The translations under genes and the position numbers were made by a program. DNA of 61,170 nucleotides from Chloroflexota bacterium (GTDB lineage: Bacteria; Chloroflexota; Anaerolineae; JAAYEA01): positions 1-61,170 of the forward strand of contig JAIOAV010000012.1 in NCBI GenBank assembly GCA_019873665.1, in the 5' to 3' direction. The notes below the pieces were generated by a model. It made no database searches and had not been told where the DNA came from. It saw nothing but the letters and a program-made list of their open reading frames with translations. Shown here one piece after another: positions 2,347-34,067 of the stretch. The stretch's first letter is position 1. Each line of letters begins with the position of its first letter.

Positions 2347-2365
2347 CCAGCAGCGCGAACGCAAC

Positions 2366-2402
2366 AAAAGAGCCGACAGGCGAGATGTCTGTCGGCTCTT
2401 GT
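2366..2402. terminator. Bidirectional intrinsic terminator
   Basis: A perfect 12-bp stem, AAGAGCCGACAG (2368-2379) with CTGTCGGCTCTT (2389-2400), and a 9-base loop. A-rich sequence precedes it and T-rich sequence follows. It lies between the convergent cohesin gene and GNAT gene and can serve both. Confidence 0.85.
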
Positions 2403-2412
2403 TACGTGGGCG

Positions 2413-2946
2413 TTAGCGCCGCCAGGTAGTGCAGAAAAAGAGCGCGATATCCCTGTTGATATAGTAGCGGTCGTTGTAGCCGCAAAAGTGGTAGCCATTC
2501 CGACGATACAGCGAGATAGCCGGATAGTTCTTGGTCTGACATTCCGCCATCAGCGATTGCAGCCCTTGCATATCGGCCCAAGTAAAGGCAGCGCGCAGCA
2601 ACTGCGTGGCGATGCCGCGCCGCCGATGCATCTCATCTACCACGAGATGCCGTATCCACCCCGTTTTGTGCCATTCCGCGGCGACGACATCAATGAACCC
2701 CACCACCTTGCCGTCCGCCTCGGCTACTTTCCAACACCGATCTTCCGTCAGCGGTGCTGCCAGATCCTCTAGTGTGCGCGGATAGGCAACGCGCAGCGGA
2801 CGCGGCAGATGCGATTGCCGGAAAGTAAACACGGTTTCCTCTCCGCGGCTCTGCTCTGCCAGTTGCCACACCTGGTCGGTGATGTATGACGGGTCAATGG
2901 CCAGACAGGCATCAAGATCGTCGTAGTTTGCTTGGCGAATCTGCAT
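2413..2946 (-). CDS. GNAT family N-acetyltransferase
   Basis: 177 residues, a normal single-domain GNAT length. The acetyl-CoA pyrophosphate-binding motif A is visible as RRRGIATQLL at about residues 108-117, after the strand IRHLVVDEMH. The C-terminal part, AISLYRRNGYHFCGY, is the usual GNAT beta5 region. The order of elements resembles streptothricin-acetyltransferase-like and RimI-like enzymes, but the acceptor cannot be read from sequence. It is followed by a terminator shared with the convergent upstream gene, and it lies 46 bases downstream of the DUF58 stop, so it may be the last gene of the moxR-DUF58 transcript. Confidence 0.85.
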   Translation of the reverse strand: MQIRQANYDDLDACLAIDPSYITDQVWQLAEQSRGEETVFTFRQSHLPRPLRVAYPRTLEDLAAPLTEDRCWKVAEADGKVVGFIDVVAAEWHKTGWIRHLVVDEMHRRRGIATQLLRAAFTWADMQGLQSLMAECQTKNYPAISLYRRNGYHFCGYNDRYYINRDIALFFCTTWRR

Positions 2947-2992
2947 CGCTGTCGACCTGCTCCCTCTCGGACTCGATCATGGCCGGCAACGC

Positions 2993-4258
2993 CTAGAACT
3001 CGAGCGCGCGTCGCGTCAGCACTTGGGCGATGGCATCCCCTTCCCGCACATGGTACGACAGGATGCCGTTGGCAGCCAGCGCGCTTTGCACCAAGCGGAC
3101 GTCGCCGGCGCCACCAAAACTCGTCGCATCCAACACCACGCCCACGCCGCGAATCCCGCGCCGATCTAGGTCACGCAATGCGTTTACCCAGCGCACGTCC
3201 GTGGACGGCGTGATGACGATCACAGTGGTATTGCGACCAAAACGCGTCCCCTCGGAAGCCAACGTCTCCGCGATAGGGATGTCGCCCTGGGCGCGCAACA
3301 CCGCCAGCGTCTCCAGAATCTTGTTGAGTTGCCGCTCACCCCGGTCGGATTGTAGCAGCTCGCGGCGCTGGCCATAGGCCAGCAGCCCGACGGCGCGGTT
3401 GCGCGCCAGGAAATGCTTGGCGATGGAGGCGGCAATCAGCACGCCATATTCCTCAGTGCTCGGCTCTAGCGTGAACTGGTAGCGCTCGTCCCAGAACGGG
3501 ACTGCACCCTCTGGCTGTGGAGCCTCGACGCGCAAATGCGCCTGCACGCTGGCTTCCATATCGAGGAAAATCCATACATCCGCCGTGGGATCCAGCTCGA
3601 ACTCTTTGACGATCAGCCGGCCTGTGCGCGCCGTGGAGCGCCAGTGAATGCGGTTAAAGCTGTCGCCGGGGAAATAATCGCGCACGCTGGAGACATTCGT
3701 CGTGACATAATGAGTCCGCTGGTGTCTCGCGCCACCTCCTGGCAGCTCGCCCAGCGGTAAGGCAAAGTAAGGCAGGTCCACCGTCGCCGGATACACGACC
3801 AGATTCTGGGTCTGCGAGATATGCCGGGTACGCTGAAAGAAACCAAAGGGGTCGCCGGTGATGAGCGTCATTGGGCCAAGGGCAAAGCGCCCGCGCTTGC
3901 GGCAGATAGTGCGCACCGTCCAGGTGCGCTGTCTCTGGCTACCAAGGTTGGAAACCACAAAGCTGGCACGATGGTTCGGCAGATCAGAGTGATCACGCAC
4001 ATCCACCCAGAGCTTGGGGAGGGGACTGCTGTTCCGGATCACCAGCCGCTCCTCCGCCAGGCGGCCCACCTGCGTGCGAGAGGCGCGCACGACGCGTTCG
4101 GCACTGACACCCCAGATATTACCCCATGACCAGAGAAAGGCGAGCACAAAGATCGCCAGAAGCAAGTACAGAAGGATAAAGAAGACTCGGTTGCCCGTGG
4201 CCAGCGCCTCGACAAGGACGATGATAAACAGCAGCAGATAGATCCAGTTCCTTCTCAT
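2993..4258 (-). CDS. DUF58 domain-containing membrane protein
   Basis: 421 residues. Two hydrophobic segments at about 5-22 and 25-45 anchor the protein. The family signature DYFPGDSFNRIHWRSTAR is followed by a von Willebrand A-like region starting at IFLDME. DUF58 proteins are encoded next to MoxR AAA ATPases and are thought to act with them as membrane-linked chaperone or assembly partners, though the mechanism is unsettled. Here it follows moxR with an 11-base gap on the same strand. A second, separate MoxR/DUF58 pair lies at 12730-14980. Confidence 0.88.
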   Translation of the reverse strand: MRRNWIYLLLFIIVLVEALATGNRVFFILLYLLLAIFVLAFLWSWGNIWGVSAERVVRASRTQVGRLAEERLVIRNSSPLPKLWVDVRDHSDLPNHRASFVVSNLGSQRQRTWTVRTICRKRGRFALGPMTLITGDPFGFFQRTRHISQTQNLVVYPATVDLPYFALPLGELPGGGARHQRTHYVTTNVSSVRDYFPGDSFNRIHWRSTARTGRLIVKEFELDPTADVWIFLDMEASVQAHLRVEAPQPEGAVPFWDERYQFTLEPSTEEYGVLIAASIAKHFLARNRAVGLLAYGQRRELLQSDRGERQLNKILETLAVLRAQGDIPIAETLASEGTRFGRNTTVIVITPSTDVRWVNALRDLDRRGIRGVGVVLDATSFGGAGDVRLVQSALAANGILSYHVREGDAIAQVLTRRALEF

Positions 4259-23365: not shown

Positions 23366-23393
23366 TTGCCTCTTGTGGGCAGATGCGTAAAAT
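23366..23393 (+). promoter_or_regulatory. Promoter of the riboswitch-controlled lipoprotein gene
   Basis: TTGCCT (23366-23371), a 16-base spacer and TAAAAT (23388-23393). Transcription from near 23400 would give a leader of about 275 bases containing the riboswitch and terminator below. Confidence 0.6.
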
Positions 23394-23416
23394 CTAGATG
23401 ACGACAAGCTACAAGC

Positions 23417-23558
23417 CGTTCTCCGAACTGCATGGCCTAAATCCGGCAGGACATGGCGTGCAGTCGCGTTCGGGCGTAGAGGCCGCGGGGTGGTCCCTGT
23501 GCTGAACAAACGGTAGCGGTGGAAACGCCGCTGCCCCCCGCGTTTGGAAAGGAGGACG
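23417..23558 (+). promoter_or_regulatory. Moco (molybdenum cofactor) riboswitch aptamer, form with an extra arm
   Basis: The 3' block CCCCCCG..TTTGGAAAGGAG matches my recollection of the conserved end of the Moco RNA (E. coli moaA leader: CCTCCCG..TCTGGAAAGG). P1 pairs 23417-23424 with 23551-23558 (8 bp, one G-U). P2 pairs ACTGCA 23427-23432 with TGCAGT 23459-23464 and encloses TGGCCTAA...ATGG. An additional arm lies at 23468-23507 (GTTC/GAAC, inner GGCC/GGTC). The last hairpin pairs GGTAGCGG 23512-23519 with CCGCTGCC 23528-23535. The same blocks recur in the minus-strand leader at 32398-32500, which lacks the extra arm. It should sense Moco or tungsten cofactor. Confidence 0.82.
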
Positions 23559-23584
23559 CCATGATAGCGGTTTCTTTGCTATGC

Positions 23585-23627
23585 ACTGGCGTTTCCGCCT
23601 GCCTTACAGCGGGAATGCCAGTTTTTT
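23585..23627 (+). terminator. Riboswitch expression platform: terminator with antiterminator
   Basis: A 14-bp stem with two G-U pairs (23585-23598 with 23609-23622) is followed by six T (23622-23627), 50 bases before the lipoprotein start codon. Its 5' arm includes GGCGTTTCC (23588-23596), which is exactly complementary to GGAAACGCC (23521-23529) inside the aptamer. Folding of the aptamer would free the terminator, so ligand should switch the gene off. Confidence 0.8.
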
Positions 23628-23676
23628 GTGTCTATTCGGCAGCCTATCGCTGCACTCTCTCGAAAGGAGAAAACGA

Positions 23677-24618
23677 ATGGGTAACAAGTGGTCGAAGAAG
23701 TTGAGTATTGCGGTGGTGGTTCTGCTCTTGGTTGCGCTGGCCGCAGCGTGCAGTCGCGGCGGCGCGCCCAAGGTGGACTGGACGGTGGAGATCAGCGGCG
23801 CGGTAACCAAGCCTCTCACTCTCAGCTATGCCGATCTGGCCAAACGAGAGCAGGTCAGGCTGGAAAACGTGCTGATGCGAAAATCGCAGGGCGAGGATAC
23901 CACCAACACATGGGAAGGGCCGGCGGTGGACGCGCTGCTGCAAGAGGCGGGCGTCTCCAGCAGGGCAACGGGCGTGACGGCAATGGCCGCCGACGGCTAT
24001 GCCATCCAGATGACGCTGGCTGACTTGCAAGGCGGCATCATCGCCCTGAAAATGGATGGGACGTGGATCGCAGACGACAAGGATCATGGCCCGATCCGCC
24101 TGGTGGTGCCGGGCAAGCCGGCGAACCACTGGCTGTTCCAGCTCACCGATATCGTGGTGGAGGAGAGTGCCATCGCCTCGCCGACGCCGCGTCCGCCGAA
24201 GGAGACCGCCACGCCGGTTCCCACGGCGACGAACACGCCCGCCCCTGCGGCAGCCGGCGGCAGCGTGGAAATCGTCGTGAACGGCAAGGTGTCCACCGAG
24301 CTCAAGCTCACGTTAGCGGACCTGAAGGGACTGGGGCCAACAACAATCCAGGCCCCGCACCCCAAGTCGGGCGAAGTGGGCACGTATGAGGGTGTGCTGC
24401 TGAGCGGGATTATGGAGAAGGCTGGCGCGGCCGCGGACGCGACCACGCTCGTGGCCACCGCCAGCGACGGCTTTAGCGCCGAGATTCCTTACGCGGACCT
24501 TACCGGCTGCAAGGACTGCATGATCTCATTCAACGACAAGGGCGAAGTGCAACTCGTAATGCCGGGCATGGCCAGCAAGGCGTGGGTGAAGGGGATCGCC
24601 CAGCTCACGCTCAAGTGA
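23677..24618 (+). CDS. Lipoprotein with two Mo-cofactor-domain-like repeats
   Basis: 313 residues from ATG 23677 (AAAGGAG upstream). The signal sequence ends in the lipobox LAAACS, so it is lipid-anchored outside the membrane. Two domains, about 27-165 and 222-313, are joined by a Thr-Pro linker. Each has the pattern of the sulfite-oxidase-type molybdopterin-binding fold: SGAVTKPLTLSYADLAK, WEGPAVDALLQEAG, TAMAADGYAIQM, RLVVPGKPANHW in the first; VNGKVSTELKLTLADL, YEGVLLSGIMEKAG, ATASDGFSAEI, LVMPGMASKAWVKG in the second. The Mo-ligating cysteine of true enzymes is not evident. Under a Moco-type riboswitch it is probably a cofactor-binding or capture protein rather than an oxidoreductase. Confidence 0.8.
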   Translation: MGNKWSKKLSIAVVVLLLVALAAACSRGGAPKVDWTVEISGAVTKPLTLSYADLAKREQVRLENVLMRKSQGEDTTNTWEGPAVDALLQEAGVSSRATGVTAMAADGYAIQMTLADLQGGIIALKMDGTWIADDKDHGPIRLVVPGKPANHWLFQLTDIVVEESAIASPTPRPPKETATPVPTATNTPAPAAAGGSVEIVVNGKVSTELKLTLADLKGLGPTTIQAPHPKSGEVGTYEGVLLSGIMEKAGAAADATTLVATASDGFSAEIPYADLTGCKDCMISFNDKGEVQLVMPGMASKAWVKGIAQLTLK

Positions 24619-24628
24619 GATGCCACCG

Positions 24629-24670
24629 GAGGGGATACGAGTCGGGCCCATGCCTGACTCGTATCCCCTC
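24629..24670. terminator. Bidirectional intrinsic terminator
   Basis: A perfect 15-bp stem, GAGGGGATACGAGTC (24629-24643) with GACTCGTATCCCCTC (24656-24670), between the convergent lipoprotein gene and the last gene of the ECF operon. The T tract is weak on the plus side (GCTATTTG). Confidence 0.75.
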
Positions 24671-24671
24671 G

Positions 24672-25814
24672 CTATTTGTGATGCAAGATGATCGGGATCA
24701 GCATGTCCTCCGGCAGCAGCGAGTCGTGATTCCCTAGCCGTCCCTCTTCCTGCACGGCATGCTGGCCGTGGTCGGCAAAGATGATGACCAGTGTATCTGT
24801 GGGGAGCGCGGCCAAGAGTTGCCCAACATGCGTGTCCACTTCGCGCACCTTGGCAGCCACCTCTGGGCTGGCCGGGCCGTAAGTGTGGGCAAAGTCGTCA
24901 ATGCCGTGCCAGTGCACAAAGAGCAGGTCAGGCATCTCCCGACCGATGGCGGTCAGCGCGTTGGCCAGCACCTCGTCGTCGCTGCTTCCATCCCCGTTCT
25001 GATCGGACGATAGCTGTAGCGGCACGTTGCGCAGGTTGAAGGCGAGAGCATAGCCCTCGATCGCCACAGCCTTCCGCCCCACCGCATGGATGACGTCAAA
25101 GATCGTCTCCAGCTCGGTGTCGCGCGCGCTGGTATCGCGGACGCCATTGCGAGCCGGCAGCGCGCCGGTGAGCAGTGCCGCCGTCGCCACTTTGGTGGCG
25201 GAGGGATACATCGTCAGCGCCAAGAGTGGCTCACCTAATGCTGCCAGATGTGGTACATCCCCCACCGCTACCGCGCGCTGGTGATGCAGGTAGCCAAAGC
25301 CATCCAGAAAAATAAGCGCGACGTGCGCCGCAGTAGTTGTCGTCAATGGTCGGCCCTCACTGACGGCGGGCGCGGGAAGCCCCAGCGCCGCCATTGCCGT
25401 CGGCGCGATGTCGAGGATAGACGCCTGCACCGCTGCCAGTGCCGACGGCACGAGCGCCTCCACGCGCAGCGGGCGGAACGTCGCCGCGCTGTCTTGCCGC
25501 GTGCCGAGGCGCAGCTCGCCGCTGCGCAACCAGGTGGCCTGCCGTGCCGTCTCGTCGCGCCAGTCGAGCACCTGCCCATCCACCATCACCGTCTCCAGCA
25601 GCGACGCGCCATGCTCCCAGAGCACGCGCTCCAACGCCACCCCATCCGCCGCCTCCTCCGGGAAATCAGCAGCGAGCTGGCACCACTCAGCGGCGGTGAA
25701 TGCGGTGATCTCGCCCCCGATCAGCAGATCGCATTGCCAGCTCGGCTGACAGGCGCTCAGCAAGACAAGGACGAGCACCAGCAGCAGAGGGGCGAGGATT
25801 CGCAAAGTTCTCAT
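24672..25814 (-). CDS. Phosphodiesterase/alkaline-phosphatase-superfamily lipoprotein
   Basis: 380 residues from ATG 25814. Lipobox LLSAC puts the lipid anchor at Cys22. Residues 160-380 carry the metal and catalytic set of nucleotide pyrophosphatase/phosphodiesterases: Asp171 in LIFLDGFGY, Thr201 (LTMYPSATK) as likely nucleophile, LLTGALPARNGV, Asp306/His310 in GIDDFAHTYGP, Asp348-His349 in FADHGQH and His363 in GNHDS. An EF-hand-like DQNGDGSSDDE lies at 271-281. Residues 28-125 (LLIGGEITAFTAAEW, VALERVLWEHG) look like a degraded copy of the Mo-cofactor-like domain of the neighbouring lipoprotein. It is the last gene of the riboswitch-controlled ECF operon; it may cleave a phosphate or nucleotide from an external cofactor. 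Confidence 0.8.
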   Translation of the reverse strand: MRTLRILAPLLLVLVLVLLSACQPSWQCDLLIGGEITAFTAAEWCQLAADFPEEAADGVALERVLWEHGASLLETVMVDGQVLDWRDETARQATWLRSGELRLGTRQDSAATFRPLRVEALVPSALAAVQASILDIAPTAMAALGLPAPAVSEGRPLTTTTAAHVALIFLDGFGYLHHQRAVAVGDVPHLAALGEPLLALTMYPSATKVATAALLTGALPARNGVRDTSARDTELETIFDVIHAVGRKAVAIEGYALAFNLRNVPLQLSSDQNGDGSSDDEVLANALTAIGREMPDLLFVHWHGIDDFAHTYGPASPEVAAKVREVDTHVGQLLAALPTDTLVIIFADHGQHAVQEEGRLGNHDSLLPEDMLIPIILHHK

Positions 25815-25828
25815 CTTGGAGATATCTC

Positions 25829-26662
25829 CTATTCTGAAGTGATGGCAACAACGTCGCGCACCCACTCGTGGCGCGGCAGCGCAGGCGATGCCAGCAAGAG
25901 CTGGTCATCCAGCTGTAGCAGCACCGCGCTCGCAGCTGCCAACGCTTCCCAGGTGATGGTCTCGCCCCCGGCAGTGGTGATGCGCAGCCGGGTGGCGGCA
26001 GGTTGCGCCAGCCAGCCGCGCAGCGGCGCGCTTGGATAGGCGTGCGTGTAGATGGCGCGATAGAGCTGGTTGTCCAGCGGGCTCTTGAAAAGCGCTGGCA
26101 AGCCGGTCTCGGTGAGCATCGCCGTCTCGCGCAACATCATCCGTCCCAGCGAAGTCGGCGCGCCGTCAACAGTCAGCGGCGTCTCATCGCCCACGACGAT
26201 GACCCACCGCACCCCCTTGAGCCAGGTGGATTCGTGATGATTTTCATCGCGAAAGCGCACCCCCTCCAGATAGGGCAGGAGCACCGACTCGTCCGTAACG
26301 TAGGGGCGGTCGAGGATCACCAGCCCGCCATCCAGCGACTGTAGCGCCACCTGGGCGAACTCCTCGACGCCGCTGCGGCGCAACAGCTCGGTGAGTGTCA
26401 GCTTGGTGCCGGTTGCATCGTTGCGATACGGGAAAAGCTCATTCACCAGATAGTAGGTGTTGCGCGGCACGTCGCCCAGCACCCAGAGCTGCGACTGGAA
26501 CGGGGCGTCGGCCCACTCGATGGCACCATGCAGGTCGTGGCAGTCGGCACATGTGGCGCGCGCTGCTACCTCCTTGGCTGGCAGCACATGCCAGCCTGTA
26601 AGGCCGACGCCGATCAGCACGCCCACCAACAGCGCCAGCGGGATCCACCAGCGATTGGTCAT
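25829..26662 (-). CDS. Membrane-anchored protein with a CxxCH motif and Mo-domain-like repeats
   Basis: 277 residues; GGAGGGAG precedes the ATG. One N-terminal hydrophobic segment (IPLALLVGVLIGVGLTGW) leads out of the membrane. CADCH at residues 38-42 is a haem c attachment motif. Downstream, LTLTELLRRSGVEEFAQVAL, DESVLLPYLEGVRFRDE and WLKGVRWVIVVGDE follow the pattern of the short Mo-cofactor-like domain, and a second weaker copy may fill the C-terminus. It sits between the HdrD-like gene (28-base gap) and the phosphodiesterase gene (14-base gap). It may pass electrons to an external cofactor or act as a binding subunit; no named family is recognised. Confidence 0.68.
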   Translation of the reverse strand: MTNRWWIPLALLVGVLIGVGLTGWHVLPAKEVAARATCADCHDLHGAIEWADAPFQSQLWVLGDVPRNTYYLVNELFPYRNDATGTKLTLTELLRRSGVEEFAQVALQSLDGGLVILDRPYVTDESVLLPYLEGVRFRDENHHESTWLKGVRWVIVVGDETPLTVDGAPTSLGRMMLRETAMLTETGLPALFKSPLDNQLYRAIYTHAYPSAPLRGWLAQPAATRLRITTAGGETITWEALAAASAVLLQLDDQLLLASPALPRHEWVRDVVAITSE

Positions 26663-26690
26663 GTTCTCCCTCCAGGCATGTGCTCTGCCC

Positions 26691-28586
26691 TCATGCCAGA
26701 CTGTCCGCTACCAGTTCGATAATATCGCGCACAGAGGCGGCAGCCAGCGCCTCCTCCAGCATGGTGGCGCAATAGGGGCAGGCGGTGGCACACATCTCCG
26801 CGCTGGACGCCCGCACATCGGCGGCGCGCAGGCGGCTGACTCGCTCTTCTGGCGGCCGCTCCAGCCAGAGTTGCCCGCCGCCCCCGCCGCAGCAGCGCGC
26901 ATCCCGCCGTGCTGACTCCATCTCCACGAGGCGCGAGCCGGGCAGCGCTGCCAGCAGCCGCCGCGGCGCGTCGTAGATGCCGTTCGCCCGGCCCAGATAA
27001 CAGGGATCATGGTAGGTAACCGTTTGCACGTCGCCTCTGCTGCGCAGTGCGATCCGCCCCGCGTCCAGCAGCGCGGCGACGGCGACGGTGGCGTGTTCCA
27101 CAACGAAATCGGCACCCAGCGCCCCGTATTCGTGGCGCAGCGTGTTGTAGCAATGCGGGCAGAGCGTGACAAGGCGGCGAAAGCGCCGCTCCCGCAGTCG
27201 GGCGATGTTCTCTGCGGCCAGAAGCTGCCAGACGCGCTCGTTGCCCATGCGGCGCGCTGGGTCGCCGCAGCAAAGCTCCTCTTCTCCCAGCGTGGCATAG
27301 CTCACCTGCGCTGCGTCCAGGATGCGGCAGAGGGCACGCGCGGCGGCGTGACGGCGCGCATCAAAGGCGGCATGGCAGCCCAGCCAGAGCAGGACATCGG
27401 TCTCGCCGCCGGGCGGGAGAAGCGGCGCAGCCAACGGCAGGCGCTGCGCCACGTTGGCTCCCCACGGGTTGCCGCGCTGCTCCAGATGGCGCGACACCGA
27501 CTGCAGCGACGCGGGGAACTCGCCTGCCGCCAGCACGCGCTCGCGCCGCATCTCCAGCAAGACACGCAGCGGCTCGGCATACACCGGGCAGGCCTCCTCG
27601 CAGGCGAAGCAGGTTGTGCACGCCCAGAGTGCGTCTTCGCCCAGCCGTTGCGCCAGGACACCATGTTCTGGCCGCTGAAACGTCTCCCACACCGCCCGCG
27701 GGTCCAACAGCTGCCCCGCCTGCTGCGCGGGGCAAACCGCAGTGCAACGGCCGCAGTGCATGCAGGCATCAGCATCCAGCAACGATTTCCACGTCAGCTC
27801 GGTGGGCTGTGCCGCGCCGAGAGGCACATCCTCGCGCGTCAGGTCCAGCGACGGCATCACGCCCAACGGCCGTCGGTTGCGAGCAAAGACGGCCAGCGGC
27901 GCGGCGACGACATGGCGCATCTTGGTCAGCGGCAACCAGACAGCGAGGCCGATGCCAAACACGTGCAAGAGTTGCCAGTGCCAGGCGTAGAGCGACCGCA
28001 CCAGATCATCGGGCCACTTGGCTGTGGCGGTAGCGATCAAGTTGCTGGCGAAAGCGAGGCGCTCCCATGGCGGGTCTGCCAGTCGTACAAACAGCCCTTC
28101 GCTGATCCACGTCCAGAACGTCAGGACGACCAACACGGCCCAGAGAACGGTATCCTCAACGCGGCGCGGCGTCTCGCGCAGGCGATAACGCCGCCAGGCG
28201 GCCAGCACCAGCCCGCTGGCTGCCAGCACCAACGCCACGTCCATTACCAGATGAAGCGTGCCGCTCTCCTTGAGCGCATCGCCGTTAGGCGTAACATAGT
28301 GCGTGAGCAGGTTGCCCACAAGCAGTATCAGGAAAGCGCCCACCAGGAGCGCGTGCATCAGCCCACCTCGACGCCGGCGCAGCGTGCGCGCGTGCAACAC
28401 CGCCACGCGCACCACCTCCCAGAGACGCTCACCCGGGCGGTCGCTGCGCGCCAGGGTGCGGCCCCGCTGCCATCCCCAGACCATGCGCGCCACGATCACT
28501 ACGCCGCCGAGGAGCGCTGCGCCCAGCAGCGCATAGAGCGCCGGATAGGTTGTAACCGAATGCACCACTTCCCGCCACCAAGTCAT
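26691..28586 (-). CDS. HdrD/DsrK-like membrane iron-sulfur oxidoreductase
   Basis: 631 residues. The N-terminal 245 residues contain five to six hydrophobic segments with a layout like nitrate reductase gamma or DsrM cytochrome b domains, including possible haem-ligand histidines (GTLHLVMD, WHWQLLHVFG). Two 4Fe-4S motifs follow, CMHCGRCTAVCP and CTTCFACEEACP. Two CCG-type cysteine domains come next (LGCH...CCGDPARRMG, and HDPCYLGRANGIYD...CCGGGGGQLW). This is the fused membrane plus HdrD/GlpC-type arrangement that moves electrons from quinol to a thiol, disulfide or other acceptor. Its place inside an ECF transporter operon is unusual. The start has no strong ribosome binding site. Confidence 0.82.
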   Translation of the reverse strand: MTWWREVVHSVTTYPALYALLGAALLGGVVIVARMVWGWQRGRTLARSDRPGERLWEVVRVAVLHARTLRRRRGGLMHALLVGAFLILLVGNLLTHYVTPNGDALKESGTLHLVMDVALVLAASGLVLAAWRRYRLRETPRRVEDTVLWAVLVVLTFWTWISEGLFVRLADPPWERLAFASNLIATATAKWPDDLVRSLYAWHWQLLHVFGIGLAVWLPLTKMRHVVAAPLAVFARNRRPLGVMPSLDLTREDVPLGAAQPTELTWKSLLDADACMHCGRCTAVCPAQQAGQLLDPRAVWETFQRPEHGVLAQRLGEDALWACTTCFACEEACPVYAEPLRVLLEMRRERVLAAGEFPASLQSVSRHLEQRGNPWGANVAQRLPLAAPLLPPGGETDVLLWLGCHAAFDARRHAAARALCRILDAAQVSYATLGEEELCCGDPARRMGNERVWQLLAAENIARLRERRFRRLVTLCPHCYNTLRHEYGALGADFVVEHATVAVAALLDAGRIALRSRGDVQTVTYHDPCYLGRANGIYDAPRRLLAALPGSRLVEMESARRDARCCGGGGGQLWLERPPEERVSRLRAADVRASSAEMCATACPYCATMLEEALAAASVRDIIELVADSLA

Positions 28587-28648
28587 CCCATTTCACCGCG
28601 GTCTTGTGATAGGGACAGGTCCAAGGCTACGCCTGACTCGAATTCCGA

Positions 28649-29464
28649 TCATCTGCCCACCCGCCACCAGAGCGCCATGCCTGCCGCGACGGCAACTCCC
28701 AGCGCCAGCAGCGCCAGGCGATCGGCCCGGGTCGCCTGCACCTGGCGCACAAAGGTGCGCGTCGGATATCGGCCAAAGGCGCGCCCCTCCATCGAGATGG
28801 CCAGCGCGTCCACTTTGCCCAGCGCCGAGACGAGCAGCGGCAACAGGAGCTGACGCAACAGCTTCCAGAGACGCGTCGGCGACCGCACATCGTAGCGCAC
28901 GCCGCGCGCCAACTGCGCCTCATACACCGTGCTCCCCTCCAGCTCAAAGAGGGGCGCCAGCCGCAGCGCCGTGACGAGCGCAAAGCCGTAACGATACGGC
29001 AGCCCAGCTCGCATCAGCGCGTAGGCGAGCTGGCTGGGATCGGTGGTGGCCACTGTGAGCATGCTCAGCAGGATGATCGCCAAAAAGCGCCCGCCGACGA
29101 TCACCCCGGCCCGCACGCCATCCACCGTCACGGGCCACGCGCCGCCGCCCCACGGCCACAGACAGAAGAGCGGCATACCGCGCCGCACAAAGAGCGCCTG
29201 CAGCAGAAAGAAGGCGATCCCCGAGCCGAGCAACAGCCGGGAGCCGCGCATGCCCCGTCCCACCCGCAGCCCGACGCGCCAATAGAGCGCGATCGCCAGC
29301 GCCAGCACCGCCAGCACCACCGCCATCAGCAGATTTTGCTCGCGGCGCGGCGAGACAAAGAGGAGCAAGCTCAACCAGAGCAGCCAGCCCAGCTTGACCA
29401 GCGGGTGCAGCCGGTGCAGGAACGAGTCTCCCGGATGGTACGTCAGGCGCGGGGGCGCAGACAT
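28649..29464 (-). CDS. ECF transporter transmembrane (T) protein
   Basis: 271 residues with about six hydrophobic segments. The EcfT coupling region shows the two Arg-containing motifs AQLARGVRYD and ISMEGRAFG in the long cytoplasmic helices. DSFLHRLHPLVKLGWLL is the usual N-terminal start of the family. It scaffolds the ATPase and substrate-specific S component. Its start overlaps the last base of the ATPase stop codon, which implies coupled translation. Confidence 0.88.
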   Translation of the reverse strand: MSAPPRLTYHPGDSFLHRLHPLVKLGWLLWLSLLLFVSPRREQNLLMAVVLAVLALAIALYWRVGLRVGRGMRGSRLLLGSGIAFFLLQALFVRRGMPLFCLWPWGGGAWPVTVDGVRAGVIVGGRFLAIILLSMLTVATTDPSQLAYALMRAGLPYRYGFALVTALRLAPLFELEGSTVYEAQLARGVRYDVRSPTRLWKLLRQLLLPLLVSALGKVDALAISMEGRAFGRYPTRTFVRQVQATRADRLALLALGVAVAAGMALWWRVGR

Positions 29465-30945
29465 CAGGTCGCCTCCGGCACGTCGCCATAGAGCGGCAGA
29501 TACGGTTGGCGGCCCAGCACATCCAGCCGCGCAAAGGCCACCCGCGGCGGCGCATCCAGCAGCAGCCGCCCCGCCTCCAGAAAGAGCACGCGGTCCGCAT
29601 AATACTCAGTCGTCAGCGGATCATGCGAAACAGCGATCACCGCGCCTCCCTGGCGCGTGAATGCTGCGAGCTGGTCCATGAGAAAGGCGGCGTTTGCCGG
29701 GTCCTGCCCGATCAACACCTCATCCAACAGCAGCAGGCGCGGCGCATACGACAGGACAGACGACAGGTTCAGCCGCCGCTTTTCGCCATAGCTGAGGCGA
29801 TAGGGGTGCGTGTCGCGATAGGGCGTCAGGCCATAGTCGTCCAGCAGCGCCATCGCCCGCGCCGCGCCCGCCGCGTCCTCAAAGTTGCGCGGGGCAAAGG
29901 TCGCCTCGTCCCAGACCGTCTCGCAGAAAAGCTGGTGATCTGGGTTCTGGAACACCATGCCTGCGTCGCGCGCCAGGCGCGAGACTGGTGTGCGGCGTGT
30001 GTCCTGGCCGCACACTATCACATCGCCCGCCGTGGGCTTGAGCAGGCCGAGGAGGACGCGCAGCAGCGTGCTCTTGCCCGCGCCATTGTCGCCCATCACC
30101 ACGACGAACTCTCCGGCGCGGACTTCCAGCGTTATGTCGCGCAGCACCTCACGTCCCTCGCGAACCACCGACACGCCCCGCAACGACGCCAGCGCCGCGC
30201 GGACGGCGCGAGGTTCCGACTGCCGGGCTGCCGCAGGGCGTGGCAGCGTGGGCAACGCAACGGGGGAGACGCCGCTATCCGCGACAATGCGCCCCGCCTG
30301 CATGGCGATCAGGCGCGGCGCAAAGGGTTGCAGGTAGGCGGTCTTGTGCTCGATGACGATGACTGTCGCGCCCGTCTCGCGGCGGAGCCGGTCCATCACG
30401 TCGAGCACGGCGCGGGTGGCAGTGGGGTCGAGATTGGAGGTGGGTTCGTCGAGGATCAACACCTGCGGCCGCATCACCAGCATCGCCGCGATGGCCACCT
30501 TCTGCTTTTCGCCGCCGGATAGCGTCGCCAGCGTGCGATCCGCCAGGTGCGACGCGCCCACCACCTCCAGCGCCCATGCCGCACGCGCGGTGATCTCGGC
30601 AGGCGGCAGGCCGCAGTTTTCCGGCCCGAATGCCAGCTCGTCGGCGACGGTGAGGGTGCAGAACTGGTTCTCCGGGTTTTGCTGCACAAGCCCGATAATG
30701 TCGGCGACCTCATAGATTGGACGGTGGCGCACGTCAATGCTACCCACATGGACCTCGCCCACCGCCTCGCCAGCGTACTGGCGAAACAGATAGCCGCTTA
30801 GCGCCAGCGCCAGTGTGGACTTGCCGCAACCGCTGGGGCCAGTGAGCACGACAAACTCGCCCGGCGCAATCCGCAAGTGCACGTCCTGCAACGCCGGGCG
30901 CGGCGCGCCGGCAAAGCGAAAGGTCAGGCCCCGCACGTCTATCAT
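29464..30945 (-). CDS. ECF transporter ATPase with two fused nucleotide-binding domains
   Basis: 493 residues, two complete ABC domains in tandem, so it replaces the usual EcfA/EcfA' pair. Domain 1: Walker A GPSGCGKST, signature LSGGEKQ, Walker B LILDEPTSNLD. Domain 2: Walker A GDNGAGKST, signature LSYGEKRRLNL, Walker B LLLLDEVLIGQDP. The second domain departs from consensus in the signature and in the D-loop. It powers the ECF importer together with the flanking T and S proteins (6-base gap to the S gene). Confidence 0.9.
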   Translation of the reverse strand: MIDVRGLTFRFAGAPRPALQDVHLRIAPGEFVVLTGPSGCGKSTLALALSGYLFRQYAGEAVGEVHVGSIDVRHRPIYEVADIIGLVQQNPENQFCTLTVADELAFGPENCGLPPAEITARAAWALEVVGASHLADRTLATLSGGEKQKVAIAAMLVMRPQVLILDEPTSNLDPTATRAVLDVMDRLRRETGATVIVIEHKTAYLQPFAPRLIAMQAGRIVADSGVSPVALPTLPRPAAARQSEPRAVRAALASLRGVSVVREGREVLRDITLEVRAGEFVVVMGDNGAGKSTLLRVLLGLLKPTAGDVIVCGQDTRRTPVSRLARDAGMVFQNPDHQLFCETVWDEATFAPRNFEDAAGAARAMALLDDYGLTPYRDTHPYRLSYGEKRRLNLSSVLSYAPRLLLLDEVLIGQDPANAAFLMDQLAAFTRQGGAVIAVSHDPLTTEYYADRVLFLEAGRLLLDAPPRVAFARLDVLGRQPYLPLYGDVPEAT

Positions 30946-30951
30946 CCGTAG

Positions 30952-32322
30952 CTATCGCACCTCAATGGCGACGACATCGGTGGCGAGCACGCGGCCATCG
31001 TCATGCGCCACAGCAAAGGTCATGCCGGCGGCGGTATTCACGCCCCAGAGCCGCCAGCCGACGTCGCGCTGCGCCTCGTCCAGCGAGAGTGTGGCGCTCT
31101 GCCCGGTCGCGGTCATCAGGACCAGCTCAGTCGCGCTCGCCTGCGGCTGCCACTTTTTCAGCACTGGCGCCAGCGACATCCCCTGGTACTTGTTCGTGCC
31201 CTGCCCCAGATCAAGCTGGCCGTTCTCCATCTCCATCTGCCAGTCAGCAGGGTTATAAGGGAAGGGACGATCCACCGCGCCGCGCACCACCACCAGCGCC
31301 TGCGCCACCAGGCGGATCTCCTGTACATTGCGCACCCATGCCTTCGGGTTCTCCGCGCCGGCGATCTCGTAGCGCATCTCGTCGCCCGCGCCGCGATGCG
31401 CCAGGATCAGCGTATCGCTCCGCTCGATCTCGTCCCGCGTGATGAAAAAGCTATAGCCGTCGGTGGCACTGACCAGCGCCGCGCCCACCGTGTCATCCGG
31501 CTGCGCCACAGCAATGATCTCCCGCAGCGGCACGCCGGTGAACTGCCGCGCCATATTGTTGACCTGGAGCCGGTACGTCTGCGGGCTGAAGCGCACGTCG
31601 GTCGCCGTGTATTCGTACGGCGCGGCGACATTGCCCACGATGCGCACCGCGGGCGGCCCCTTCAGCGCCGTCGAGAGGTAAAAGCCGGCGCCCACCGCCA
31701 GCAGCGCCATCGCTCCTAGAAAGAGCGGATACATGCGACGGCCCAGCGGCGCGACCGGCTGATCCTTCACCACGCCCGCGCGACGCAGCGCCCGCAACAG
31801 CGTATATCCCAATCCGCCCGCCAGCACCACCCCCGACACGAACGCGATGCCGGCAATGAGCCAGATAAAGCGCAAAACATCCTCCGGCGCGGCGGCAAAG
31901 AGCTGGAAAACGAATACATTGGAGGCAGTGGCCAGCCCGCCCGCCAGAGTCAGAGGCAACAGGCGATCCTTGTAGCGGAAGGGAAGCACCGCCGCATCCA
32001 CCAGCAAGCCAGCGACGAGGTCAATCAGCAACACCAACACACCATGCGTATTGCCACTGAGAAACTCGACCGCGCCCTTGAGCAGGCCGGTGATTGTCCC
32101 TGCCCCTGCCTTGCCGGTGAGGCCCACGGCCAGCACCAGCCAGAGGACGTGTAACCCCGCTGCCCACTGCAGCGACCCGGAAATGCCGAGCGCCGCCTGA
32201 AGCGCGTCGCCGATGGCATTTATGGCCGTGCCGCTGACGCCGCCCAACGCTGCCAGCGCCGCCATCAACAACAGATCGCGTGTGGTGAAATAGTACCGAC
32301 GCCCTGAGATTTGATCGTTCAT
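30952..32322 (-). CDS. ECF S component fused to Mo-cofactor-domain-like repeats
   Basis: 456 residues from ATG 32322, with AGGGAG 7 bases upstream; the frame is open to 32505 only because it runs through the riboswitch. The N-terminal 210 residues hold six or more membrane segments with an S-component layout. FTTRDLLLMAALAALGG and VEFLSGNTHGVLVLLIDLVAG recall the YkoE type. The outer C-terminal 245 residues contain two domains resembling the lipoprotein at 23677: GVPLREIIAVA, VSATDGYSFFI, AWVRNVQEIRLV in the first, and TGQSATLSLDEA in the second. I know of no S component with such a fusion. As first gene after a Moco-type riboswitch it probably binds molybdopterin, Moco or the tungsten form. 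Confidence 0.78.
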   Translation of the reverse strand: MNDQISGRRYYFTTRDLLLMAALAALGGVSGTAINAIGDALQAALGISGSLQWAAGLHVLWLVLAVGLTGKAGAGTITGLLKGAVEFLSGNTHGVLVLLIDLVAGLLVDAAVLPFRYKDRLLPLTLAGGLATASNVFVFQLFAAAPEDVLRFIWLIAGIAFVSGVVLAGGLGYTLLRALRRAGVVKDQPVAPLGRRMYPLFLGAMALLAVGAGFYLSTALKGPPAVRIVGNVAAPYEYTATDVRFSPQTYRLQVNNMARQFTGVPLREIIAVAQPDDTVGAALVSATDGYSFFITRDEIERSDTLILAHRGAGDEMRYEIAGAENPKAWVRNVQEIRLVAQALVVVRGAVDRPFPYNPADWQMEMENGQLDLGQGTNKYQGMSLAPVLKKWQPQASATELVLMTATGQSATLSLDEAQRDVGWRLWGVNTAAGMTFAVAHDDGRVLATDVVAIEVR

Positions 32323-32353
32323 GGATGTACTCCCTGCCTGACGTGAGACATAG

Positions 32354-32389
32354 AAAAAGGCCCGTGCGCAGGAAAGGAGAGCACAGGCC
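32354..32389 (-). terminator. Riboswitch expression platform of the ECF operon
   Basis: On the minus strand GGCCTGTGC (32381-32389) pairs with GCACGGGCC (32359-32367, one G-U) and is followed by five T (32354-32358). The competing antiterminator pairs TGTGCTCTCCTTTCC (32371-32385) with GGAAAGGAGCGCACA (32395-32409), 14 of 15 positions. The latter includes the aptamer's 3' P1 strand, so ligand binding should release the terminator and shut the operon off. Confidence 0.88.
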
Positions 32390-32397
32390 CAGCATGT

Positions 32398-32500
32398 GCG
32401 CTCCTTTCCAAAGGCGGGAGGCGCAGCCGTTTCCCGCTGCACCCTATCGGTTGCGCGCCATCGGCGCCCCTGCGCCCTTAGGCCACGCAACTCGGAGCTT
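32398..32500 (-). promoter_or_regulatory. Moco/Tuco riboswitch aptamer, compact form without the extra arm
   Basis: Read on the minus strand: P1 GCTCC (32494-32498) with GGAGC (32400-32404). P2 GTTGCG (32486-32491) with CGCAAC (32450-32455) encloses TGGCCTAA and ATGG around a GGCGC/GCGCC hairpin. The last hairpin pairs GGTGCAGC (32436-32443) with GCTGCGCC (32420-32427) and is followed by TCCCGCCTTTGGAAAGGAG. These blocks match the leader at 23417-23558 and, as I recall, the Moco RNA family. Only six bases separate P2 from the last hairpin, so the P3 arm is missing. Such P3-less variants have been linked to tungsten cofactor. Confidence 0.85.
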
Positions 32501-32519
32501 TTCATGTTTGCTTGGTGTG

Positions 32520-32548
32520 ATTATATGCGAAACGGGGCGGGATGGCAA
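32520..32548 (-). promoter_or_regulatory. Promoter of the ECF operon
   Basis: On the minus strand TTGCCA (32543-32548), a 17-base spacer and perfect TATAAT (32520-32525). Transcription from about 32513 starts just before the riboswitch. Confidence 0.82.
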
Positions 32549-32588: not shown

Positions 32589-32627
32589 GACGTGCAGATC
32601 GAGCGCCATCTGAAGGGAGGACATCTC

Positions 32628-34067
32628 ATGGCTGGCAGACCGAATGTCGTGCTCTTTTGCGTGGACCAGTGGCGGGGCGATTGCCTCAGCGTGGATGGCC
32701 ACCCCGTTGTGCACACGCCCTATCTCGACCAGATGGCGCTGAATGGCTGTCGCTTTGCCCGCGCCTATTCAGCCGTACCAAGCTGCATTGCCGCGCGCGC
32801 CTCACTTTTCACCGGGTTGACGCAAGAGAGCCACGGGCGCGTCGGCTACCAGGATGGGGTGCCATGGACCTATCCCATCACGCTGGCGGGTGAGTTCACG
32901 CGCCACGGCTACCAGACGCAGGCGATCGGCAAGATGCACGTCTATCCAGAGCGGTGGCTAGCCGGGTTCCAGCACGTCATCCTGCACGATGGCTACCTGC
33001 ACTTTGCCCGCCGCCGCGAGAACTGGGATGCCATTGACGACTATATCCCCTGGCTGCGTCAACAGCTTGGGCGCGACGCGGATTACTTCGAGCACGGCGT
33101 AAACTGCAACTCGGTGGTGGCGCGGCCATGGGACAAGGACGAATACCTTCATCCCACCACCTTTGTCGTAACGCAGGCGATTGACTTTTTGCGGCGGCGC
33201 GACCCGACCAAACCGTTCTTCCTCTTTCTCTCCTTCCACCGCCCGCACCCGCCATACGACCCGCCGGCATGGGCGTTCGAGCAGTATGTGGATCGACCTA
33301 TGCCCGCGCCGCCGCTGGGGAATTGGTTCGACCTGTGGCGCGAGCACGCCGACCCCTACCGTCCCGACGCAGCGGTGGGGGAAATCCGGCCTGACGTGTT
33401 GCAGCGGGCACGGGCCGGCTATTACGGCCACATGTCGCATATTGACCACCAGATCAACCGCTTTGTGGAGACGCTGCATGAGCGTGGCCTGGCGCAGGAC
33501 ACCATCCTATGTTTTGTCTCCGATCATGGCGAGCTGATGGGCGACCATCATCTCTTCCGCAAGACGCTGCCATACGAGGGGTCGGCGCGCGTGCCGCTGA
33601 TCCTGGCAGGGCCGCCCGCCGCGGGCATCCAGCGCGGTGCGGTGTGCACAGAGGTGGCCGAGCTGCGCGACGTCATGCCGACGCTGCTGGATTGCGCCGG
33701 GCTGGAGATCCCGGCGGGCGTCGAGGGACGTAGCTTACTGCCGCTGGCGCGCGGCGAATCGCTCCCGTGGCGGCCATACCTGCATGGCGAACACACGACG
33801 ATGGGGCAGTCGGTGCAATGGCTGACGGACGGCCACGAGAAGTATGTCTGGTGCAGTGGCAACGGTGCAGAGCAGCTCTTTGACCTGGAACACGACCCGC
33901 AGGAAGAGACCGATCTGACGCGCATGTCAGGTCACGAGGCACAGGTGCGACGTTGGCGCGAGGTGATGATCGCCACGCTACAGGGCCGCGAGGAGGGGTT
34001 CAGCGACGGCACGCGGCTGATCACGGGCCGGCCGGTGCATCCGGTGCTGCGCCGCCTGCGGGAGTAG
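32628..34067 (+). CDS. Sulfatase family hydrolase
   Basis: 479 residues from ATG 32628, with GGGAGG upstream. It starts with RPNVVLFCVDQWRGD (metal Asp13) and carries the active-site segment SAVPSCIAARASLFTG. Cys53 would be the formylglycine precursor, but the motif is CxAxR rather than the usual CxPxR. SDHGELMGDHHLF supplies the late metal-binding Asp and His, and the C-terminal LYLEHDPQEETDLT-type region (LFDLEHDPQEE) is typical. There is no signal peptide, so it is probably cytoplasmic and acts on a small sulfated or phosphonate substrate. No formylglycine-generating enzyme gene lies in the window. Confidence 0.85.
   Translation: MAGRPNVVLFCVDQWRGDCLSVDGHPVVHTPYLDQMALNGCRFARAYSAVPSCIAARASLFTGLTQESHGRVGYQDGVPWTYPITLAGEFTRHGYQTQAIGKMHVYPERWLAGFQHVILHDGYLHFARRRENWDAIDDYIPWLRQQLGRDADYFEHGVNCNSVVARPWDKDEYLHPTTFVVTQAIDFLRRRDPTKPFFLFLSFHRPHPPYDPPAWAFEQYVDRPMPAPPLGNWFDLWREHADPYRPDAAVGEIRPDVLQRARAGYYGHMSHIDHQINRFVETLHERGLAQDTILCFVSDHGELMGDHHLFRKTLPYEGSARVPLILAGPPAAGIQRGAVCTEVAELRDVMPTLLDCAGLEIPAGVEGRSLLPLARGESLPWRPYLHGEHTTMGQSVQWLTDGHEKYVWCSGNGAEQLFDLEHDPQEETDLTRMSGHEAQVRRWREVMIATLQGREEGFSDGTRLITGRPVHPVLRRLRE

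Follow-up and report, generated by a model that had tools for sequence, protein, structure and literature searches.

A riboswitch-associated ECF transporter locus of a Chloroflexota bacterium: a putative salvage system for the molybdenum/tungsten pyranopterin cofactor

The locus

Contig JAIOAV010000012.1 of a Chloroflexota bacterium (GCA_019873665.1, a 4.16-Mb draft genome of 185 contigs, 91.5% complete) exhibits two riboswitches of the molybdenum cofactor (Moco) type in a single locus, at positions 23,366-32,548 of the 61,170-nt stretch of DNA analysed here (the window). One of them precedes a lipoprotein gene. The other precedes, on the minus strand, six genes separated by short gaps, in the order S, A, T, HdrD-like protein, CxxCH protein and phosphodiesterase, the first three being the parts of an energy-coupling factor (ECF) transporter. 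We consider here whether this locus serves the salvage of a molybdenum (Mo) or tungsten (W) pterin cofactor from outside the cell. Its features are the following:

23409..23570, plus strand: Moco-type riboswitch RF01055 with P3 stem (P3 from the alignment), leader of the lipoprotein gene (cmscan 64.8 bits, E = 2.5e-13)
23586..23627, plus strand: predicted intrinsic terminator, hairpin 23586-23621 and U6, between aptamer and lipoprotein start (script and fold)
23677..24618, plus strand: lipoprotein with two Cys-less sulfite-oxidase-type (PF00174) domains, predicted cofactor/pterin binder, ATG at 23677 (PF00174 E = 7.7e-25, two stretches; family alignment A4)
24672..25814, minus strand: lipoprotein phosphodiesterase/nucleotide pyrophosphatase, ATG at 25814 (PF01663; closest solved relatives are nucleotide pyrophosphatases)
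25829..26662, minus strand: membrane-anchored CxxCH protein of sulfite-oxidase/PruR-like fold (alignment A2; model and fold searches)
26691..28586, minus strand: HdrD-like membrane protein, 4Fe-4S and two CCG domains (PF02754, PF13183; TfrB/LdhH/GlpC-like)
28649..29464, minus strand: ECF T component, CbiQ/EcfT (PF02361 E = 6.3e-26)
29464..30945, minus strand: fused double ECF ATPase, A (TIGR04520 E = 4.5e-104, two stretches)
30952..32322, minus strand: ECF S component, YkoE-type membrane domain (residues 11-189) and two sulfite-oxidase-fold ectodomains (PF09819; model and fold searches)
32354..32389, minus strand: predicted intrinsic terminator, hairpin 32389-32359 and U5; a competing antiterminator pairs aptamer GGAAAGGAG with CTCCTTTCC (script and fold)
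32385..32509, minus strand: Moco/Tuco-type riboswitch RF01055 lacking P3, leader of the six-gene operon (cmscan 71.3 bits, E = 3.1e-15)

A first-pass annotation had described the locus as two Moco-type riboswitches, a lipoprotein of two Mo-cofactor-domain-like repeats, and a six-gene operon with all ECF parts, an HdrD-like protein, a CxxCH protein and a phosphodiesterase. This description holds throughout. The Infernal search of both leaders with the RF01055 model gave 71.3 and 64.8 bits, far over the gathering score of 36; PF00174 matches the lipoprotein in two stretches; and the genes and Pfam/TIGR matches agree on the content of the operon. S, T and the paired ATPases are encoded together, which is the ECF group I arrangement.

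Distribution of the S loci

A scan of named genomes yielded 57 S loci: 31 from Chloroflexota, 19 archaeal (Thermoplasmata, Hermod-, Heimdall- and Thorarchaeota), 3 from Phycisphaerae, and 2 each from Bacillota and Bipolaricaulota. A Bacillota S used as query retrieved 722 protein homologues, and the 120 listed include Syntrophomonadaceae, Desulfotomaculaceae and Thermovorax subterraneus. The S fusion, which the annotation had proposed to follow across Chloroflexota, proved to be a conserved family, with RF01055 upstream of S in 29 of the 31 loci (not in L021 and L023). The riboswitch lies at most 130 nt from S in 25 loci and 185-521 nt from it in 4; L012 exhibits a small open reading frame in between. 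Both Bacillota loci possess two RF01055 riboswitches each. RF01055 was not found in the 18 of the 19 archaeal loci that were scanned (L060 was left out).

Using tblastn with a threshold of 45 bits, A was detected in all 31 Chloroflexota loci, T in 25, the CxxCH protein in 22, the lipoprotein and the phosphodiesterase in 17 each, and HdrD in 3, several contigs ending inside the operon. These counts bear on the idea that the locus encodes a cofactor-using respiratory or redox complex of HdrD, cytochrome-like and sulfite-oxidase-fold proteins, to which the transporter is accessory. The operon does contain HdrD-like and CxxCH proteins. However, S-A-T is the constant core of the loci and HdrD accompanies it in only 3 of the 31 relatives, while the lipoprotein family has, by eye, no cysteine at the metal-binding position; such a complex is highly improbable. 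Within the present operon, a redox role of HdrD and the CxxCH protein is our guess.

In five Chloroflexota loci (L024, L026, L030, L031 and L010) a Cobalamin riboswitch lies within ~9 kb of the Moco system, and that of L024 (16727-21263) is followed by genes for a surface protein of terpene-cyclase fold and for S- and T-like ECF components. This region suggests a cofactor-scavenging island. In the window, a sulfatase-family gene (32592-34067) is divergent from the S operon and has no evident link with it.

Riboswitches and predicted terminators

The two RF01055 matches are the only ones in the whole draft genome (cmscan; 150 of 160 first-look candidates scored). Stem P3 is absent from the aptamer of the S operon and present in that of the lipoprotein gene. 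P3 is also absent, by eye, from 26 of the 29 relatives' S leaders, the exceptions being L009, L012 and L018; according to Regulski 2008 (PMC2408646), RNAs lacking P3 are associated with tungsten-cofactor metabolism. The lipoprotein genes of L009 and L010, too, are under riboswitches of their own.

We compared 31 leaders, those of the 29 relatives and the two of the window. Within ~90 nt of the aptamer, 26 of them have a predicted terminator, where dinucleotide-shuffled sequences would give 1.8. A segment able to pair with the conserved GGAAAGGAG of the aptamer is present in 24 (4.9 expected), the lipoprotein leader not being among these. Such a layout is the plan of a transcriptional OFF switch, and we predict cofactor-dependent control.

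The S component resembles YkoE in fold, not in pocket

The membrane part of S has the YkoE fold and is homologous to YkoE at E = 1.6e-14. This homology, together with the label "thiamin/HMP permease" that some databases give to S, would fit an ordinary thiamine/hydroxymethylpyrimidine (HMP) transporter of the YkoEDC kind, or that of another vitamin, standing beside Moco genes by chance. The pocket does not agree. Of the residues by which YkoE contacts thiamine, only Glu77 is kept in the window's S (E86), and Trp49, Gln95, Asp131 and Tyr46 correspond to H58, A104, Q140 and A55 (profile alignment, by eye). Throughout the family, or nearly so, Trp49, Asp131 and Tyr46 are replaced, and the replacing residues are themselves conserved (alignment of 59 rows, in which L065, from G160, enters as a second row of the same genome as L031, from G185). 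Gln95 is more favourable to thiamine, being often kept outside Chloroflexota. The riboswitch is RF01055 and not the thiamine pyrophosphate class in 29 of the 31 Chloroflexota loci, and S is fused to sulfite-oxidase (SUOX) domains. With both pocket residues and riboswitch class in disagreement, we set the thiamine reading aside as scarcely credible. The transporter is of the ECF kind, YkoE-like in fold but not in pocket, and ATP-driven uptake is predicted.

SUOX-fold domains and their likeness to a pterin binder

In model and fold searches, the S ectodomains and the CxxCH protein resemble the pterin binder PruR. The two ectodomain profiles of S match each other at 98.7%; PF00174 falls just under its cut-off in this protein (21.7 vs 24 bits), whose PF09819 domain is matched. 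The CxxCH protein exhibits no Pfam match, and its model no Foldseek match at E = 0.001, PruR being the best at E = 0.011. In the lipoprotein, the metal-binding cysteine of the sulfite-oxidase family is missing, Met68 standing in its place (A4 family, by eye against L169).

Related domains occur next to oxyanion-uptake genes. L012 encodes a TupA-type binder fused to a PF00174-like domain (23.2 bits). In L051, typed TupA- and TupB-like genes, an ABC ATPase and MOT1 adjoin S, and L055 exhibits Tup/MOT1 genes by eye. These arrangements, together with the occurrence of RF01055 upstream of molybdate transporters (PMC2408646), favour import of molybdate or tungstate by the ECF system, the SUOX-fold proteins doing something else. 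An oxyanion alone, however, cannot yield the cofactor in cells that lack MoaA, MoaC and MoeA (see below), S is a YkoE-type binder of organic ligands with SUOX domains, and a second oxyanion importer would hardly be needed at a locus already provided with Tup-type genes. We regard oxyanion import as very unlikely. In the same two loci, giant surface proteins of 1618 and 2123 aa (L051:14671-19524 and L055:14662-21030), which reach the locus end, are encoded downstream of the second Moco riboswitch; the L051 protein exhibits a PF00174 match.

Phosphoesterases and a candidate kinase

In other lineages the phosphoesterase step appears to recur with an unrelated enzyme family. A calcineurin-type phosphoesterase was identified beside the S-A-T operon for all five archaeal proteins tested and for the one Bacillota protein tested. 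Among the archaeal enzymes, that of L058 exhibits PF00174 over the cut-off (25.0 vs 24 bits), and three others score 17.7-23.2 bits. The strongest support for the predicted trimming step is that phosphoesterases of two unrelated families adjoin the same kind of transporter, several of them bearing traces of the binder domain. A SUOX-like N-terminal region of the window's phosphodiesterase, suspected by eye, was not confirmed: profile comparisons gave at best 57%, to the CxxCH family.

In 10 of the 19 archaeal loci (L038-L041, L045, L046, L050, L057, L058 and L060) S-A-T is adjoined by a RIO/APH-like kinase, the four typed scoring at or slightly under the RIO/APH Pfam cut-offs. It is a candidate kinase for a dephosphorylated pterin cofactor. 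This partner was not found in any Chloroflexota locus examined. On the Thorarchaeota contig of L058, a molybdoenzyme of formate-dehydrogenase/DMSO-reductase type (1138-3120) is encoded two genes upstream of S.

Loss of cofactor synthesis genes

MoaA, MoaC and MoeA gave no match genome-wide in the window's draft (MoaE, MoaD, MogA and Mod genes were not searched); MocA- and MobA-like genes are present elsewhere than at the locus. We extended these searches to 49 S-bearing genomes, 48 from the loci and the window's own, counting G160 and G185 (L065 and L031) once and dropping L042, L044, L046, L048, L050, L052, L054, L059 and L061. MoaC was found in 15 genomes, MoaA in 15 and MoeA in 17, and all three were absent in 31; G207 exhibits a MoaA fragment under the cut-off. 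All 31 genomes nonetheless have matches to cofactor enzymes, AFOR_N in 30 and PF02738 in one.

Of 29 Chloroflexota genomes without full-length S, used as controls, MoaC is present in 26, and in one none of the three genes was found; some of these controls weakly resemble parts of S, either its SUOX or its membrane portion. Within Chloroflexota only, all three are absent in 16/32 S-bearing genomes vs 1/29 without full S (p = 3.8e-5). A second draw comprised 397 same-class genomes of known completeness, 17 with S (G359 and G385 holding part of S only) and 380 others, 63 of which were tried, by handle number. For genomes at least 90% complete, MoaC is present in 6/17 with S vs 58/63 without (p = 3.4e-6). 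Seven genomes at 91-97% completeness lack all three genes: the window's and those of L008, L010, L015, L024, L026 and L031 (by matching coordinates). On the S tree the moaA/moaC state changes 10 times, so the link between S and missing synthesis is not one inherited event; the tree omits L065 and the short L052, carries a long-branch warning, and counts changes in either direction, loss or gain. The association sought by the annotation between S and loss of moaA, moaC and moeA is thus found, in genomes that keep cofactor enzymes.

Three controls, G064, G144 and G024, exhibit no full-length S and neither MoaA nor MoaC (nor MoeA in G064), with cofactor enzymes present; the enzyme searches covered these 3 of the 29 controls. 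Perhaps they possess another importer, or genes were missed.

These counts also bear on what would be imported. A precursor (metal-free molybdopterin or cyclic pyranopterin monophosphate) or a simpler pterin could enter, the cell finishing the cofactor. The match of the SUOX-fold domains to PruR, a binder of small pterins, is consistent with this, as are the pyrimidine-contacting Glu of YkoE kept in S and the MoeA kept in three Moa-less Chloroflexota relatives (G170, G173 and G175). Yet MoeA, the insertase family for tungsten as well as Mo (PMC13197769), is missing together with MoaA and MoaC in 31 of the 49 genomes, and import of a precursor is unlikely. As the insertase is absent along with the Moa proteins, the molecule taken up probably carries its metal already.

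Cofactor enzymes and nucleotide-adding genes

The window's genome encodes eight AFOR_N proteins (five read, 613-655 aa), two proteins of xanthine-dehydrogenase type, one of DMSO (dimethyl sulfoxide)-reductase type and two Cys-bearing ones of sulfite-oxidase type, of which one shows, by eye, a Tat-like (twin-arginine translocation) signal. A further PF00384 gene, L167, is NuoG-like and was excluded as a cofactor enzyme. The same genome contains a MocA-type domain at 180 bits (cut-off 186) and a MobA-like gene. High-scoring PF12804 genes of the MocA/MobA kind were found in 5 of the 6 other Moa/MoeA-less genomes searched. Typing placed the protein of L010 over the MocA cut-off (202 bits) and those of L015, L024 and L031 under it (141-158 bits), that of L026 being untyped; the MocA-type protein of the prototroph control L181, the one control typed, likewise falls under it at 145 bits. 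The genome of L008 is the exception, with no PF12804 match above 72 bits, no PF02738, one weak PF00384 and 11 AFOR_N. With MocA/MobA-type genes kept and Moa/MoeA gone, the early steps and metal insertion appear lost, and the nucleotide-adding step seems retained where its enzymes exist. In Moa-less genomes a MocA-type domain is also found fused to a HAD phosphatase or to YqeC (L171:586-2079, L174:568-2004, L170, L172 and L175).

The proposed salvage pathway

We propose that the locus serves salvage: the pyranopterin Mo/W cofactor (Moco or its tungsten counterpart, Wco) would be captured outside the cell, trimmed and then imported, under riboswitch repression. We put the probability of this reading at about three in four. 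The Cys-less SUOX domains of the lipoprotein, the CxxCH protein and S would hold the pterin; the phosphodiesterase would split dinucleotide forms (molybdopterin guanine or cytosine dinucleotide, MGD/MCD) to the mononucleotide; and the HdrD/CxxCH pair, where present, may hold the dithiolene in its reduced state. ATP-driven import of Mo/W-molybdopterin would then fall to A, T and the YkoE-like S. Inside, MocA/MobA-like enzymes would add the nucleotide again for enzymes of xanthine-dehydrogenase and DMSO-reductase type, while those of aldehyde:ferredoxin oxidoreductase type would use the imported cofactor unchanged. In archaea the neighbouring kinase perhaps restores a phosphate. Both riboswitches would terminate transcription once the cofactor is plentiful. 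The terminators and folds are predictions from sequence, and import, trimming and the identity of the ligand are what we infer. Capture, trimming and import of an external pterin cofactor with shut-off was the reading of the first-pass annotation, and the independent genome-wide evidence supports it, binding and transport being putative.

Several observations weigh against this proposal. The pocket of PruR is reported to be likely too small for Moco (PMC13259868), so that a smaller pterin could be the ligand. Gln95 of YkoE is kept in 21 of 26 rows outside Chloroflexota, the N-terminal part of the phosphodiesterase gave no convincing SUOX match in profile comparison, and the HdrD gene is found in only 3 of the 31 Chloroflexota relatives. 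MoaA and MoaC are kept by 13 of these relatives and by both Bacillota genomes, so import would not always be obligatory. MoaC is also absent in 3/29 and 5/63 genomes without full S, and the three such controls among the 29 carry cofactor enzymes. Among the five MocA-type proteins typed in Moa-less genomes, one passes the curated cut-off. The gene counts cover MoaA, MoaC and MoeA only; the window's draft carries 6.15% contamination; and most relatives are metagenome-assembled genomes, with completeness known for 13 of the 49 S-bearing ones only.

A wider claim may be drawn, for and against which we see the chances as about even: that this is the first complete salvage pathway for the Mo/W pyranopterin cofactor in prokaryotes, with SUOX binders, a surface phosphoesterase, YkoE-like ECF import of the metalated cofactor, and rebuilding by MocA/MobA or an archaeal RIO/APH-like kinase. 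Chloroflexota and many archaea, Asgard lineages included, would then be auxotrophs living on cofactor released by their neighbours.

Significance and comparison with known systems

Moco is very unstable, and most of its users are believed to make their own. Importer genes, if our proposal is true, would place Moco beside vitamin B12 among shared goods, would account for genomes that have Mo/W enzymes but lack the synthesis genes, and would suggest a way of delivering the cofactor, relevant to human Moco deficiency.

The annotation's statement that no Moco or molybdopterin importer of this type had been described stands: among the matches listed in the open-licence PubMed Central (PMC) literature there is no paper on a Moco transporter, and only passing suggestions. 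As far as the portions of these sources go, molybdopterin uptake is suggested for some outer-membrane proteins of the type 11 secretion system (T11SS) (2025, PMC12282271), "molybdenum cofactor transporters" are mentioned among genes of the fungus Geosiphon (PMC13315312), and PMC11879881 only asks about Moco uptake by other animals. As far as this literature shows, the pathway would be new.

The nearest parallel in function is the uptake of dietary Moco by Caenorhabditis elegans, likewise a use of Moco made by others. The part of PMC9793310 (2022) considered here states that uptake of exogenous Moco had been neither examined nor observed outside C. elegans, asks how Moco crosses membranes, and names no transporter; the present system would be prokaryotic, with named genes.

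With the Moco/Tuco riboswitch (Regulski 2008, PMC2408646) the locus shares the aptamer, in both P3-lacking and P3-containing types. The genes given for it in the sections of that work considered here serve synthesis, oxyanion transport or cofactor use, some being of unknown function, with no ECF cofactor importer.

PruR (PMC13259868) exhibits the same extracytoplasmic sulfite-oxidase fold without metal-binding cysteine as the window's domains, which also, by eye, seem to contain equivalents of its Tyr104 and Trp160. PruR serves DcpA/DTB signalling, whereas the window's domains sit in or beside a transporter.

Finally, YkoEDC, the group I ECF thiamine/HMP transporter (YkoE structure 5EDL, PMC5037267), has the YkoE fold in common with S. 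The present system differs in being under RF01055 and not a thiamine riboswitch, in the two SUOX-fold ectodomains added to S, in the replacement of Trp49, Asp131 and Tyr46 (in Chloroflexota also of Gln95), and in its surface phosphoesterase and pterin-binder-like lipoproteins.

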